Shown here: positions 31,045 to 37,065 of the stretch, piece by piece
Layout: each line of letters starts with the position of its first letter
Numbering within the stretch: the stretch's first letter is position 1
Source of the DNA: Pirellulales bacterium
GTDB lineage: Bacteria > Planctomycetota > Planctomycetia > Pirellulales > JADZDJ01
Direction: 5' to 3'
Assembly: GCA_035499655.1 (NCBI GenBank)
Contig: DATJYL010000153.1
Location: 1-37,065 of the forward strand
DNA length: 37,065 nucleotides
Position numbers and translations under genes: made by a program
Notes under the pieces: generated by a model
Databases searched by the model: none
Told to the model about the DNA's origin: nothing
Seen by the model: the letters and a program-made list of their open reading frames with translations, nothing else

Positions 31045-31428
31045 ATGGCCAGGCCGCGTGCCAAAGAATTGACCGAGCGTGAACTGGAAGTCATGCAGGT
31101 GTTTTGGAAACACGGCGAGCTGGATGCCGTCGAAGCCCGCGAGCAATTGGCCGCCGCCGGGTTGGATCGGGCCTACACCACCATTGCCACGCTGGTGCGG
31201 ATTTTGGTGGAAAAGGGATTTTTGAAGCAATTGCCCGGCGAGCGGCCGTTTCGCTTTCGGCCTACGCGCTCGCAGGAAGAAGTCTCGGGCCGCATGTTGG
31301 CCGACGTTGTCGAGCGGTTGTTCCAAGGCTCGCGCGAGCAGTTGTTGGTACAACTGCTGAAACAAAAAAAGCTGACCGTCAAAGAGCGGATTATGCTGCA
31401 AGAAATTTTGAAGGAGCATCAATCATGA
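31045..31428 (+). CDS. BlaI/MecI/CopY-family transcriptional repressor
   Basis: A 127-residue winged-helix repressor: LTERELEVMQVFWKHGELDAVE (helices 1-2), ARAYTTIATLVRILVEKGFLKQ-type recognition helix (YTTIATLVRILVEKGFL), wing ERPFRFRPTRSQEEV, then a C-terminal dimerisation helix with LLVQLLKQKKLTVKERIMLQEIL. Family members repress an adjacent operon until cleaved or displaced through their M56 peptidase partner. The ATG at 31045 follows GGGAGGAG. Its stop codon overlaps the ATG of the M56 gene by 4 bases (ATGA), so the two are translationally coupled. Confidence 0.93.
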   Translation: MARPRAKELTERELEVMQVFWKHGELDAVEAREQLAAAGLDRAYTTIATLVRILVEKGFLKQLPGERPFRFRPTRSQEEVSGRMLADVVERLFQGSREQLLVQLLKQKKLTVKERIMLQEILKEHQS

Positions 31429-34400
31429 ACCCTATTACCGCGGCGATTGTTTGGATGATCATCCAAGTCTTGCTGTTCTCGCTGATTGGCGGAGCCGCGT
31501 TTGTGCTGCTGCGGCGTCGCGGACCCAGCGCGGCAGTGGCTTGTGCCGCAATGGTGTTGGCGCTGACATTGCCGCTGGTGTTGTTGTTGGCCAGTCCTTG
31601 GCCGCGATGGATTGAAAAAGCCGAAGTCCGAAATCCGAAAGTCGAAACCAATTCAAAAATCGAAGACCAAAACACGATGGATCTGGGCGATCGCTCCAGC
31701 CTGCCGACAAAGGGAGAGGGAGTAAATGCCGCCAAGGGGTCCGTGCTCTCGACCGCGGCAGCTTGGTGGCAAACGGCGACGCAGTGGTTGCAGCCGGGCG
31801 CCAATTTTGCCTCTGCAGATAGCGCTCCGCCGCAAGCGGTCTGGACTCAATGGATTCCGTGGATGCTGGCGGCGGGAATCGGATTGGGTTTGGCGCGATT
31901 GGCGGCCGGCGTGTGGGCGGTGGGCAGGTTACGCAGCCGGTCACGGCCGATTGATGATCCGACATTGACCGCGCTGCTTCGGCAACTGGCGGTGGAATTG
32001 AATGCGCCGCCGGTTGCGTTATGTCAGACAGACCAACTGCGCTCGGCGGCGACCATCGGCTGGCGGCGGCCCGTGTTGCTGTTGCCTGCTGATTGGCCAC
32101 AGTGGACCGAAACGGAGCGGCGCGTCGTGTTGGCCCATGAGTTGGCCCACGTGGCGCGGCGAGATTATTTGACGGCGCTGTTGGCCCGGCTGGTGTCGGC
32201 GATTCATTTTTATCAGCCGTTGGTGTTGTGGTTGGGCCGGCAGTTGCGGATTCAGCAAGAATTGGCCGCCGACGCGCAGGCGGCGGCGCTGGCCGGCGAC
32301 CGGCAAACGTATTTAGCCACGCTGGCGCAACTGGCGCTACGCGCCGATGACCAGCCGTTGCCGTGGGCAGCTCGGGCGTTTTTGCCGGGCACCAGCATGC
32401 TGATTAAGCGTGTGGCGTGGCTGAAGCGTGGGCAAGATCGAAAAGTCGAAAAGTCGCTGAGTCGAAGTGGCAAATGCATTTTGGCGGGAGTGTTTGTGGC
32501 GATGGCGGTTGGCGTGGCCGGAATTCGCGGACCGCAAGAGACGGGATCAATGGTGGCGGTGGCGGCGGGGTCAGAGGACGCTAAGCCGCAAGCGGATGGG
32601 AAGTCGGATGAAGCCAAACAAGCTGAGAAGAAAAAAGATAATGGCCCGGCGTGGGATGTTTCGAATCCGCAGCCGGCGGCGCTGCGCACATTTCAATTTG
32701 TGCCGGCCGATGCCAAGTTGGTCGTCGCCGTTGATCCGCATGAGCTAGCGAAAATTGCACCGGCGACGCAGCCGTTGGTCGACATGTTGAACAAAGAATT
32801 CGAAGCCAAAAACGGATTCAAACTGACCGAAGTGACGGATTTTGAGCTCATTTGGACGCACTCCACCAAGCAGCCTGACCGGATTGTCGCTCGAACGGAA
32901 AAGGCCGTGGGTTGGAAAGACGTACTGCGGCGGCACAATCCGGATTTTTTGGAAACGAAGCACGTGGGCGACCATGAATACTTCATTTGGAAAGACAGTC
33001 CTGACTTCGGCCCGTGCCTGTACATGGTGGACGATCGGACGATTGTGGCCGGCAGCGAGGAACAGATTCAAACGGTAATTCGCGGCGGCGAAAAGCTGAT
33101 GGACGCCAACACGTTTCCGGAATTCATGGGCAATCCGCTGGCATATCGGGCGGAAATACCGTTCATCAAGCAGATGGCGGGGTTGGACAAGCTGCCGAAG
33201 GATTTTGAATCGAACCCAGTCGCAGCGATGTTTTTGCCGCTGCTGGATCATGTGCAGATCGTCCGGGCGTTTGCCGGACCGGATGGGCAGAAATCTGGCA
33301 GCGCCTTTTTCGCCGCGCTGGGGGAATGCGATTCTGCTGACGGCGCCCAGCAGGTGGCCAACACGTTGGGGGCGCTGCGCACCCTGGGGCAGAATTTGCT
33401 TCAGGCCAAAATGCAGGCCTGGCGGCAAACGGAGGAAAAGACCGCCAGCCAGGAGCAAGCGACGCAGATTCATCAATTTTTTGACATTTTGACCAAATCC
33501 TTGGCTGACGTGAAGATAGATGCGGCGGACAAGACGGTTCATGTTTCGGCCAACGTCGAAGCAGGCCCGGCACTGGTGGCAGGCTTTTTAATGCCGGCGA
33601 TGGCGTCGGCGAAAGAAGCGAAGTTGCGCACGCAGAGCATGAACAATCTAAAAATGCTGGCGCTGGCACTACTGAATTACGAAGATGCGCGCAAACATTT
33701 TCCACCGGCTGTAATTCGGGATAAAAACGGCAAGCCGCTGTTGAGTTGGCGAGTGGCAGTTTTGCCATTCATCGATCCGTGGGATGAGAACAAGGCGTTG
33801 TACGACCAGTTTCATCTCGATGAACCGTGGGATAGCGAACACAACCGCGAACTGATCAAAAAAATGCCTAAAGAATTTCGCGATCCGCATGATCCGGAAA
33901 GCAGTACGAATGCTTCGTATTTCATGCCGACGGGCAAAGGAATGGTTGGCGGCAGCGAAAATGGAACGCAAATGAAGGAGATTCGAGACGGCACGGCGAT
34001 GACGATTTTGCTCGTGGAAGCCAAGCGCGATATTCCCTGGACCAAGCCGGAGGATATCGAAATCGAAGCTGATCCGACCAAGCCATTGCCGACGTTCGGA
34101 GGGCATTTGCCCGACAACGTTTTTGGAGCCTTGTTTTGCGATGGGCACGTGCAGGTTATTTCCAACGAGGCCGATCCGAAAGCATTGCGGGCCGTGTTCA
34201 CTATCGACGGCCGCGAGCCGGTGGATTGGGGAAGACTAAATTCGAAGCCGGCGGATAAATCTTGGGATGCCAGCCCGGGCCCGCCGCCGGACGTGAAGCC
34301 GGTTGAACCACAGAAATCGTCGGTTCCGTCTGATCGCAGTTCGGGCATCACTCCGCCGAAAATTGAATTTCACCGGGCCGATGATCAACCGGCGACGGGG

Positions 34401-34733
34401 TTGACCGAGGCTACGGCGCCTGAGGGCCCGAATGTGAAAATTTATTTGCACCCGGAAGCGGAGCTGACAAACGCCGACATTGCCGAGGCCACGGCGACGA
34501 CCGACGGCCTGGGTCAGCCCGCGATTTCAGTTTCGTTTACTGCACAAGGGGCGAAAAAAATGTCGAAGCTGACCGAAGAAAACCTCGGCAAGCCGATGGT
34601 CATCATGGTCGATGGCAAAGTGTTGAGTGCGCCGACCATTCGCAGCAAAATTGCCGATGGAAAGGCCCAAATCTCCGGCCACTTCACCCAGGAAGAAGCG
34701 GAGCGGATTGCCAAGGGCATCAACGGAGGGTAG
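31425..34733 (+). CDS. M56 (BlaR1-like) metallopeptidase with DUF1559-like and SecD-head-like domains
   Basis: A 1102-residue protein starting MNPITAAIVW. Membrane segments: about 9-29, 36-57, 142-166, and a last one 350-367. Between them lies the M56 protease: VVLAHELAHVARRDYL (HExxH at 238-242) and QEELAADAQAAAL as the downstream acidic helix. After TM4, residues about 400-720 form an uncharacterised domain (FVPADAKLVVAVDPHELAK onward). Residues about 728-940 match the DUF1559 pilin-like C-domain: AKLRTQSMNNLKMLALALLN, FPPAV, LSWRVAVLPFIDP, NVFGALFCDGHVQVIS. Residues about 1000-1102 resemble the SecD P1 head (ISVSFTAQGAKKMSKLTEEN, VDGKVLSAPTIRSKI, QISGHFTQEEAERIAKGI). Residues about 64-95 derive from repeat-like DNA. 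It probably senses an envelope signal and relieves BlaI repression. Domain boundaries are approximate. Confidence 0.85.
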   Translation: MNPITAAIVWMIIQVLLFSLIGGAAFVLLRRRGPSAAVACAAMVLALTLPLVLLLASPWPRWIEKAEVRNPKVETNSKIEDQNTMDLGDRSSLPTKGEGVNAAKGSVLSTAAAWWQTATQWLQPGANFASADSAPPQAVWTQWIPWMLAAGIGLGLARLAAGVWAVGRLRSRSRPIDDPTLTALLRQLAVELNAPPVALCQTDQLRSAATIGWRRPVLLLPADWPQWTETERRVVLAHELAHVARRDYLTALLARLVSAIHFYQPLVLWLGRQLRIQQELAADAQAAALAGDRQTYLATLAQLALRADDQPLPWAARAFLPGTSMLIKRVAWLKRGQDRKVEKSLSRSGKCILAGVFVAMAVGVAGIRGPQETGSMVAVAAGSEDAKPQADGKSDEAKQAEKKKDNGPAWDVSNPQPAALRTFQFVPADAKLVVAVDPHELAKIAPATQPLVDMLNKEFEAKNGFKLTEVTDFELIWTHSTKQPDRIVARTEKAVGWKDVLRRHNPDFLETKHVGDHEYFIWKDSPDFGPCLYMVDDRTIVAGSEEQIQTVIRGGEKLMDANTFPEFMGNPLAYRAEIPFIKQMAGLDKLPKDFESNPVAAMFLPLLDHVQIVRAFAGPDGQKSGSAFFAALGECDSADGAQQVANTLGALRTLGQNLLQAKMQAWRQTEEKTASQEQATQIHQFFDILTKSLADVKIDAADKTVHVSANVEAGPALVAGFLMPAMASAKEAKLRTQSMNNLKMLALALLNYEDARKHFPPAVIRDKNGKPLLSWRVAVLPFIDPWDENKALYDQFHLDEPWDSEHNRELIKKMPKEFRDPHDPESSTNASYFMPTGKGMVGGSENGTQMKEIRDGTAMTILLVEAKRDIPWTKPEDIEIEADPTKPLPTFGGHLPDNVFGALFCDGHVQVISNEADPKALRAVFTIDGREPVDWGRLNSKPADKSWDASPGPPPDVKPVEPQKSSVPSDRSSGITPPKIEFHRADDQPATGLTEATAPEGPNVKIYLHPEAELTNADIAEATATTDGLGQPAISVSFTAQGAKKMSKLTEENLGKPMVIMVDGKVLSAPTIRSKIADGKAQISGHFTQEEAERIAKGINGG

Positions 34734-34790: not shown

Positions 34791-36134
34791 TTACGTCGCG
34801 CTGATTTGCGGCGATTGGAAGTATTTCAGCCGCGGGCTGCGAATGACGAAAATCCACAGCGTGATGGCGGCCACCATCAGCAGCACGCTGATGTTTTGCG
34901 AAATGGTCATGCCGGTGCGGGCCACGAGCGGCTCGTCGGTGCGGATCGATTCTTCCAGAATTCGCATCACCGGGTAAATGGTGATCATCAAAGCCGTCAC
35001 TTCGCCGGCGTGCCGGCGGAATGGATACCAGGCCAGCAGAAACAGCGTGAGCAACAGCGCGCCCAACGCACTGTACAACTGCGTGGGATGCACCGGCAGG
35101 CTGCGCGGCGGCAGCGGCGCGGGAGCGGTCAATGTCCACGTGTGCCCAGCCAGTTGGCCGCCGGCATCGATCACTCGGAAAGTGACTTTCGTTCCGGGCT
35201 GTTGAATGTTGGTCAGCGCTTCGACCGCGCCGGCCACGGTGAGATCGGCGGTTTCGTCGGCCGGATAGGGATATTGCTTATCCGAATGGGGCGGCTCGAC
35301 GACGATGGCTGTCAAACGGTCGCCCACGTGCAGGCCGGCCTGAGCGACGGGCGAATTATCGTCCAGCGATTGGATGGTTGCCGGTGCGAATGGATTAAAA
35401 TCGAAATGAATGCCGTCGAGCACAAGCTGTCCGCGATCGGCCTGATTCATGTACGCCGGCGAACCGACGGGAAACGTGACCGCCCAGGGACGATCGCACA
35501 AGCCACCGTAGCAGCAACCGTTAAGAAAGCACCCGACGCGCCCCAAGGCCAGGCCCAAAACCAGACTGGGGGCGATGATATCGGCGAATTTGAGCACCGG
35601 AAGCTTGTGCCGCATGAAGAACCAACTGGCCGCGATGCAGCCGCCGGCAAATGAACCGTACACGACCAGCCCGCCCTGGGTGTAATTGACGATCGCGCCC
35701 AAAGTCGCTGCCAGCGTGGGACGCTGATATTCCTGCCAGTATTCGATAATGTAAAACAGCCGCGCCCCAGCAATCGCCGCCACGCACATCCACAGGGCCA
35801 GCGAGTAAACGAGATCCGGATCGTATCCTTCTTGCTTCGCGCGATACACGGCCAGCGCCACGCCCGCCACGACGCCCAGGAAAACCATCACTCCATAACC
35901 GCGGATCGGCAGACCCACATCGTCGGACAACCGCGGCAGCACCCAGGCCAGCACGGCGCCGAGCAGCAGCATGATGGGAATTTCACTCCACACCGCGTTC
36001 ATCGGCGCATGCTGATAGAACAGCCAGCCGAGCCGCGAAATGCAAATGACAACCCACACCGCCAGCAAAATGCCGAACCCCAATAATGGTAGGCCGCCGA
36101 CTTGGTTCGGGATGTGAAACAGGATGGTTTGCAT
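34791..36134 (-). CDS. lgt: Prolipoprotein diacylglyceryl transferase with internal PDZ-like insertion
   Basis: A 447-residue inner-membrane enzyme that transfers diacylglyceryl from phosphatidylglycerol to the lipobox cysteine of prolipoproteins. Lgt landmarks: QGGLVVYGSFAGG (153-165), the catalytic-arginine loop LGLALGRVGCFLNGCCYGG (193-211), VTFPVGSPAY (219-228), and after the insertion VHPTQLYSALGAL (348-360). Around 225-345 a domain of about 110 residues interrupts the enzyme; its core ATIQSLDDNSPVAQAGLHVGDRLTAI and a closing VTFRVIDAGG are PDZ-like. Usual Lgt is about 260-330 residues. ATG 36134 is chosen; open frame extends to 36233 but is repeat DNA. No strong ribosome site. Confidence 0.88.
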   Translation of the reverse strand: MQTILFHIPNQVGGLPLLGFGILLAVWVVICISRLGWLFYQHAPMNAVWSEIPIMLLLGAVLAWVLPRLSDDVGLPIRGYGVMVFLGVVAGVALAVYRAKQEGYDPDLVYSLALWMCVAAIAGARLFYIIEYWQEYQRPTLAATLGAIVNYTQGGLVVYGSFAGGCIAASWFFMRHKLPVLKFADIIAPSLVLGLALGRVGCFLNGCCYGGLCDRPWAVTFPVGSPAYMNQADRGQLVLDGIHFDFNPFAPATIQSLDDNSPVAQAGLHVGDRLTAIVVEPPHSDKQYPYPADETADLTVAGAVEALTNIQQPGTKVTFRVIDAGGQLAGHTWTLTAPAPLPPRSLPVHPTQLYSALGALLLTLFLLAWYPFRRHAGEVTALMITIYPVMRILEESIRTDEPLVARTGMTISQNISVLLMVAAITLWIFVIRSPRLKYFQSPQISAT

Positions 36135-36141
36135 GTGTTTT

Positions 36142-36292
36142 AACCGCAGAGACGCAGAGTCGCGGAGAGGAAAGCAAATGTAGGAATTAGGATTTAGAAT
36201 GTAGGATGTAAGAATTGAGGAGCTTGTTTTCAAATCTTACATCCTCCTACATCCTAAATTGTTTTCTCCGCGTCTCTGCGTCTCCGCGGTTC
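36142..36292. repeat. Nested inverted repeats between panC and lgt
   Basis: Two oppositely oriented, imperfect copies of the CCGCAGAGACGCAGAG type (36142-36173 and 36262-36292) flank an inner palindrome: GGATGTAAGA (36204-36213) pairs with TCTTACATCC (36235-36244). Additional GTAGGA-like units surround it. The whole gap between panC and lgt (156 bases) is this element; it may fold into one long hairpin. No promoter could be read inside it. Confidence 0.7.
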
Positions 36293-37065
36293 AATTCCTT
36301 TCGGAGGGTCCAAACAGTTCGTTGTCGATCAGCCGGGTTTGTCCCACATGGGCGGCGACCAGCGCGACGGCGGACGTTTCGATATGGTTGAGTTCCGCCA
36401 GCGTTTCCGCATCGGCAACCGTGGCGTAATCCATTTGCACGTCCGGCTCGTTGGTGATCATCCGTCGCATCGCTTCGCAGATTTTCGCGGCGTTGCGCTC
36501 GCCGGCATCGAACATTTCGCGGGCAAACTGTAGGCTGCGCGGTAGAACCAGGGCGTGTTGCCGCTGCTCGGCGGTTAAATACACATTTCGCGAGCTGAGG
36601 GCCAGGCCATCGGCATCGCGGACCGTGGGGCAAACGACAATTTCGATAGGCAAATTAAGATCGGCGACCATGCGTCGCACGGCCAGTGCTTGTTGATAAT
36701 CTTTGCGGCCAAAATATGCCCGATCGGCCGGCGCGATTTGAAACAGCTTCATCACCACGGTGGCCACGCCACGAAAATGCCCCGGCCGCAGCGCTCCTTC
36801 CCACGGTTCCGCCAGGCCGTTCAATTCGACCGAGGTGCCAAAGCCAGGCGGATACATTTCACTGGCCTCGGGTGCAAACACTAGTGGCACGCCGAGCACC
36901 GCCAACTGCGCGACATCGGCTTCCAAATTTCGCGGATACTTGGCGAAATCTTCCGCCGGCGAAAATTGTTTCGGATTGACGAAGATCGAAACGACCGTGA
37001 AATCACACTCGCTCTGGCTGCGTTTCACCAGACTCAGATGGCCCGCGTGCAGGGCGCCCATCGTG
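36291..37065 (-). CDS. panC: Pantothenate synthetase (5' end outside window)
   Basis: PanC joins pantoate and beta-alanine using ATP to give pantothenate, the coenzyme A precursor. About 256 residues are visible. The nucleotide-binding block TMGALHAGHLSLVKRS (HxGH) is at the start, followed by SIFVNPKQFSPAEDFAKYPR, FAPEASEMYPPGF, GALRPGHFRGVATVV, the ATP-site ADRAYFGRKDYQQ, PTVRDADGLALSSRNVYL (with the KMSKS-like SSRN), and a C-terminal dimerisation domain. About 25-30 N-terminal residues lie beyond the window edge at 37065. It is separated from the downstream lgt by the repeat at 36142-36292; no terminator is visible. Confidence 0.95.
   Translation of the reverse strand, partial: TMGALHAGHLSLVKRSQSECDFTVVSIFVNPKQFSPAEDFAKYPRNLEADVAQLAVLGVPLVFAPEASEMYPPGFGTSVELNGLAEPWEGALRPGHFRGVATVVMKLFQIAPADRAYFGRKDYQQALAVRRMVADLNLPIEIVVCPTVRDADGLALSSRNVYLTAEQRQHALVLPRSLQFAREMFDAGERNAAKICEAMRRMITNEPDVQMDYATVADAETLAELNHIETSAVALVAAHVGQTRLIDNELFGPSERN

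Follow-up and report, generated by a model that had tools for sequence, protein, structure and literature searches.

A prolipoprotein diacylglyceryl transferase of Pirellulales carrying a PDZ domain in its periplasmic head

We analysed a stretch of 37,065 nucleotides from a Pirellulales bacterium (contig DATJYL010000153.1 of assembly GCA_035499655.1), hereafter the window. Its lgt gene encodes a phosphatidylglycerol:prolipoprotein diacylglyceryl transferase (Lgt) in which, as sequence profiles and structure models make near certain, the insert is a genuine PDZ domain of the HtrA type, complete in this enzyme. The inserted domain is old and, by sequence comparison, retained across two orders of planctomycete bacteria; evolution placed a standard peptide-binding module in the head of Lgt. 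Lipoprotein biosynthesis is committed at the step that Lgt catalyses, the first of the pathway, and the enzyme is regarded as constitutive and as a target for antibiotics. A PDZ in the head bears on the question of how Lgt deals with the polypeptide portion of its substrate.

The enzyme and its inserted domain

The reading frame of the gene is intact, with 447 codons running on the minus strand from an ATG at 36134 to a stop at 34791, and a genome-wide search found a single Lgt copy in the 4.54 Mb genome. The protein scored 184.5 bits against Pfam LGT (PF01790; curated cut-off 24.9; E 2.6e-54), the match being split into two blocks, and 121.6 bits against TIGR00544 (cut-off 118.9). Alignment to the E. 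coli structure 5azb, together with the signature motif, placed the essential E. coli residues Y26, R143, G154 and R239 at Y80, R199, G210 and R391, which are near-invariant in A1 and A2 (aligned relatives); by the same alignment, Y387, R391, E395 and R398 correspond to E. coli Y235, R239, E243 and R246. Y159, C202 and C207 stand at the positions of E. coli H103, N146 and E151, and Tyr for H103 and Cys for N146 and E151 are natural Lgt variants in a 2026 survey (PMC13251419). With its catalytic residues retained, the protein is a functional-looking transferase. The genome encodes one LspA and one full-length Lnt, so that this Lgt serves the whole pathway; as the sole Lgt of such a genome, it is probably active in diacylglyceryl transfer. 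Coordinates of the features are collected in Table 1.

Within the signature motif, the string GCFLNGCCYG contains three cysteines where E. coli has N146, E151 and L152, and these are invariant among the aligned relatives; a metal or disulfide role on the periplasmic side is conceivable. Two other genes flank lgt. Directly upstream lies panC (36291-37061, minus strand). Convergent with lgt, a plus-strand gene (31104-34733) encodes an unusual fusion that joins a BlaR1-type M56 peptidase (Pfam E 3.4e-23) and DUF1559 (SBP_bac_10; 1.1e-23) to a SecDF P1 head subdomain at the C-terminus (1.5e-26).

Table 1. Features of the lgt gene in the window
Feature	Position	Strand	Basis
lgt with PDZ insertion, 447 aa	34791..36134	(-)	Pfam LGT 2.6e-54; sole Lgt of genome; AF2 model vs 5azb
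N-terminal extension, residues 1-73: start motif and two extra predicted membrane helices	35916..36134	(-)	Model helices 22-40 and 45-69
Lgt catalytic body, first block, residues 74-227	35454..35915	(-)	Best Pfam LGT stretch, profile positions 7-155
Lgt signature motif GRVGCFLNGCCYG, residues 198-210 (E. coli G142-G154)	35505..35543	(-)	Near-invariant in A1/A2; N146C and E151C
Head element SPAYMNQADRG, residues 225-235, kept in PDZ-less Lgts; PDZ comes after	35430..35462	(-)	Model helix 226-233; junction comparison
PDZ domain in periplasmic head, residues 239-341 (about 105 residues)	35112..35420	(-)	VIA Z 9.9 to HtrA-type PDZ; profile E 1.6e-20; insert folded alone
Carboxylate-binding-loop equivalent DGIHF, residues 240-244	35403..35417	(-)	Pattern G-hydrophobic-x-hydrophobic
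PDZ helix alphaB, residues 300-308, one wall of peptide groove	35211..35237	(-)	DSSP of model
Lgt catalytic body, second block, residues 345-435, with Y387, R391, E395, R398	34830..35102	(-)	Pfam LGT; alignment to 5azb

Ahead of the standard seven-helix body, the protein carries an N-terminal extension of about 70 residues that is common to Pirellulales and Planctomycetales and absent in the Gemmatales-like proteins L143, L146 and L158. In sequence (MQTILFHIPNQVGGLPLLGFG, followed by GLPIRGYGVM), the extension looks as though the start of Lgt had been repeated in part.

The initial annotation had proposed that a PDZ-like core of about 110 residues splits the enzyme between VTFPVGSPAY and VHPTQLY. 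The stretch from one motif to the other is about 120 residues long, and profile, model and orthologues agree in placing the PDZ there, at about residues 239-341 on the periplasmic side. The window sequence alone matched PDZ_2 at 18.1 bits (E 0.0033) for the insert and 14.4 bits for the whole protein, against a cut-off of 27 that is a detection limit and not a defining trait; so weak a match could not decide the call from a single sequence, and this sub-threshold score is what spoke for a chance resemblance of a low-complexity loop. PDZ_6 was matched by 30 of 37 orthologues, with a best E of 2.3e-11. A profile built from 21 inserts retrieved 436 PDB sequences at E <= 0.01, the best being DegP-like HtrA (1.6e-20) and RseP-type proteases (4.6e-20).

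The AlphaFold2 model that had been suggested as a check was computed from 47 input sequences (mean pLDDT 90.4, pTM 0.85) and contains the PDZ fold. Foldseek ranked 5azb first and PDZ proteases next. By VIA-align, the model matched E. coli Lgt 5azb with a Z of 22.3 and an rmsd of 3.2 over 258 residues, which indicates that the seven-helix Lgt fold is present, and its residues from about 239 to 341 matched the PDZ domains of HtrA, DegS, DegQ, Prc, CtpB and RseP with Z of 8.6-9.9 and rmsd of 1.7-2.8 across 77-90 residues. The insert modelled on its own adopted the PDZ fold again. The profile E of 1.6e-20, two independent AF2 models and the structural matches thus rule out chance resemblance, to which we give virtually no probability.

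In the alignment to 5azb, the insert takes the place of a short stretch of the E. coli chain, between positions 169 and 194. That stretch belongs to the periplasmic head, between the signature-motif helix TM4 and TM5 (PMC4728403, PMC13251419). PDZ-less relatives read FP-x-SPPW-x-x-Q-x-x-x-G-LL, then about 10-20 residues, then RSLPVHPTQLY, and from this junction it follows that the PDZ sits after the head helix and before the LPVHPTQ segment. In Lgts of Phycisphaerae and unclassified Planctomycetota (L137, L139, L148, L149 and L152), the same head loop, from NGCC to an HPTQ-like motif, is occupied by inserts of unrelated sequence, about 140-165 residues long, in which charged and helical-looking stretches abound; within the phylum, this loop is a hot spot for insertions.

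Distribution, loss and constraint

In Pirellulales, the insert occurred at one and the same junction across some 20 sampled families, among them named records of Rhodopirellula, Blastopirellula, Lacipirellula, Botrimarina, Mariniblastus and Thermoguttaceae, some of them reduced. A Gemmatales-like group (families f112, f113, f114 and f115, including the Gemmataceae record L146) likewise carried it widely and at that junction, the order names of the sampled relatives being inferred. The insert was absent from sampled Planctomycetales, Isosphaerales-like f111 and other classes. A survey of the insertion's distribution, also suggested by the initial annotation, therefore places it in two orders and not throughout the phylum, and no earlier description was met in the literature searched.

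Within Pirellulales, the PDZ is gone from L063, in the window's own family, from f100 (L062, L277, L278 and relatives) and from L064, L065 and L282. In a quick tree of the Lgt body only, the PDZ label needs seven changes, and PDZ-less Pirellulales branch off inside clades that carry the PDZ, at three points with starred support. Since PDZ-less members nested among PDZ-bearing ones point to losses, the tree indicates that the domain was lost at least three times within the order, once in the window's own family. One further sequence in this part of the tree, L128, comes from a MAG contig titled Candidatus Kuenenia stuttgartiensis; its Lgt groups with the PDZ-less f100 clade, which suggests a mislabelled or contaminated bin.

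In the same quick tree, Pirellulales and the Gemmatales-like group each pair with a PDZ-less order. Profiles of the Pirellulales inserts scored the Gemmatales-like inserts at a median of 43.3 bits versus 32.9 for other PDZs of the window genome (p 0.0008; reverse p 0.01), and the insertion junction coincides in the two orders. To separate one PDZ origin from two in these orders, a tree built from the PDZ only had too few columns.

The groove of the domain is largely preserved. The window PDZ has, by model and alignment, both elements that form it, the GIHF loop and helix alphaB. The G-hydrophobic-x-hydrophobic loop is kept in 21/21 aligned inserts and its glycine is likewise found in 21/21 and is nearly invariant in A1 and A2; these values come from the 21-insert alignment and A1/A2, as insert trimming partly built the loop columns into the alignment used for the alphaB positions. 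In that alignment, one alphaB position is Ala in 23 of 28 sequences and another is Leu or Ile in 27 of 28. The alignments thus indicate that the ligand-binding features, loop and alphaB, are conserved in most families. Between the window and its nearest relative, the congener L033, NG86 dN/dS was about 0.21 for the PDZ versus about 0.11-0.12 for the body, consistent with a PDZ under purifying selection in the window's genus and less constrained than the enzyme body.

Elsewhere the domain is eroded. The recognisable part of the PDZ profile ends after about 38 of its 78 positions in marine Pirellulaceae and their relatives (L095, L099-L101, L107-L111, L116-L119 and L134, among others), and helix alphaB seems, by inspection, to have been lost in marine Pirellulaceae; the insert is still about 105-135 aa long in many of these half-PDZ proteins. 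Several Lacipirellulaceae (L285-L290) have a degraded SPAxxAGL element, or alphaA, and the Gemmatales-like L214, L220, L230, L231 and L236 hold some 70 extra residues within the PDZ, after the NG turn. Together, the losses, the half-PDZ forms and the degraded alphaA argue that lipidation as such can proceed without the PDZ.

Losses and half-PDZ forms count for two readings in which no peptide is bound or function hardly matters. The PDZ might bind no peptide and be a rigid spacer or lid over the head that makes Lgt more stable or suits it to the periplasm of planctomycetes. Proteins in which alphaB seems gone still have the first half of the domain, the insert keeps its length in many such proteins, and in Phycisphaerae the same loop is filled by unrelated inserts of about 150 aa, all of which would suit a lid; however, the groove-forming loop and alphaB are conserved in most families and PDZ-less sister enzymes show that the body can manage without one, so that we regard a purely structural role as unlikely, though a serious candidate. 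Alternatively, a PDZ may have landed once or twice in an insertion-tolerant head loop as a nearly neutral decoration that is now drifting. Multiple losses, relics, half-PDZ forms, the insertions within some Gemmatales-like PDZs and a PDZ evolving faster than the body would fit such drift, which is hard to reconcile with order-wide retention, a groove recognisable in most families and a dN/dS that, within the genus of the window, is far below 1 for the PDZ; we consider it quite improbable.

A docking site on the head and its alternatives

The reading that we tentatively favour, at somewhat short of even chances, is that the PDZ is an accessory docking site on the Lgt head for a peptide, most likely the mature part of preprolipoproteins; binding, the nature of the ligand and any effect on catalysis are all conjectural here. 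The seven-helix body would carry out ordinary diacylglycerol transfer, while the PDZ on its periplasmic face would dock extended or C-terminal segments of the mature parts as they leave the Sec channel. Docking would then keep substrates close to the active site or influence which of them are processed. In E. coli, head swaps alter Lgt function, and their authors propose that the flexible linkers of preprolipoproteins contact the head; substrate specificity was assigned to the head and arms in the same 2026 study (PMC13251419).

The initial annotation had also suggested that the domain could select substrates or link lipidation to proteolysis or secretion. Given the head-swap effects and the proposed contact between linker and head, such selection or linkage via the PDZ is plausible; outright losses and the half-PDZ forms of marine Pirellulaceae weaken PDZ-based selection as a general rule. 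A stronger version, which we hold to be doubtful, is that the PDZ acts as a substrate checkpoint, reading preprolipoprotein C-termini or unfolded segments in the periplasm, so that lipidation would be selective or coupled to completed translocation. If this were true, Lgt would be a gate and not a constitutive enzyme.

The ligand could instead be an envelope protein, such as a translocon component, LspA, a protease or a chaperone, whose recruitment would link lipidation to translocation, maturation or quality control. Bacterial PDZ proteins are mostly proteases (PMC6411480), the window genome has 34 PDZ_6 matches, and an engineered Lgt-PDZ clusters partners in E. coli (PMC9893748), all of which could accommodate partner docking. 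The neighbourhood of the gene speaks against it: no dedicated partner gene adjoining lgt was found, and panC is the only recurrent neighbour, a panC-like motif being found by motif check in the lgt flanks of 33/46 Pirellulales loci (L082-L127), so that the panC-lgt pair looks conserved. The C-termini of LspA and Lnt are expected on the cytoplasmic side, and these enzymes would thus offer the PDZ no periplasmic tail. Taken together, we find recruitment of a partner rather unlikely. For docking of the substrate itself, nature provides a set of enzymes with and without the PDZ (for example the window's lineage versus L063, of the same family), which makes the question of how head and substrate interact directly testable.

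Comparison with known systems

Searches of the open-access literature, with subscription papers and domain-architecture databases outside their scope, found no description of a natural Lgt-PDZ protein, also when combined with planctomycetes. A survey of microbial PDZ proteins (PMC6411480) contains no mention of Lgt or lipoproteins, and the lipocone paper mentions Lgt and PDZ separately only. Automated annotation may already show the architecture.

The nearest construct by composition is synthetic. Engineered scaffolds in E. coli (PMC9893748) also join Lgt and PDZ, but there a mouse PDZ is fused to one end of Lgt, which serves as an anchor, whereas the window PDZ is natural and internal. Another periplasmic PDZ on an inner-membrane protein is that of EpsC in type II secretion (PDB 2i6v), which is reported to be necessary for secretion of one substrate (PMC12369372); EpsC differs in being no enzyme and in having a PDZ that is not inserted in a catalytic domain.

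The PDZ domains of HtrA, DegP, DegQ and DegS and of Prc and CtpA share with the insert the fold, the bacterial PDZ topology, the glycine loop and alphaB. They adjoin protease domains, whereas the host of the window PDZ is a lipid transferase with no protease attached. RseP-type site-2 proteases come closer in layout, being multi-pass membrane enzymes with a periplasmic PDZ between membrane segments, and the 21-insert profile matched the PDZ tandem of an A. aeolicus RseP-type homologue at E 4.6e-20. RseP itself, a zinc protease, carries two PDZ domains and belongs to an enzyme family unrelated to Lgt; by analogy, such proteases may nonetheless be the closest guide to how Lgt-PDZ works.

Compared with E. 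coli Lgt (5AZB/5AZC; PF01790), finally, the window enzyme has the same body fold, signature motif and essential-residue equivalents, and the same periplasmic head element that takes the insertion. The E. coli protein has its own head without a PDZ, whereas the window Lgt adds a PDZ of about 105 residues and two N-terminal helices. The enzyme is thus already known, and what is new is a PDZ-bearing form of it and not a new kind of system.
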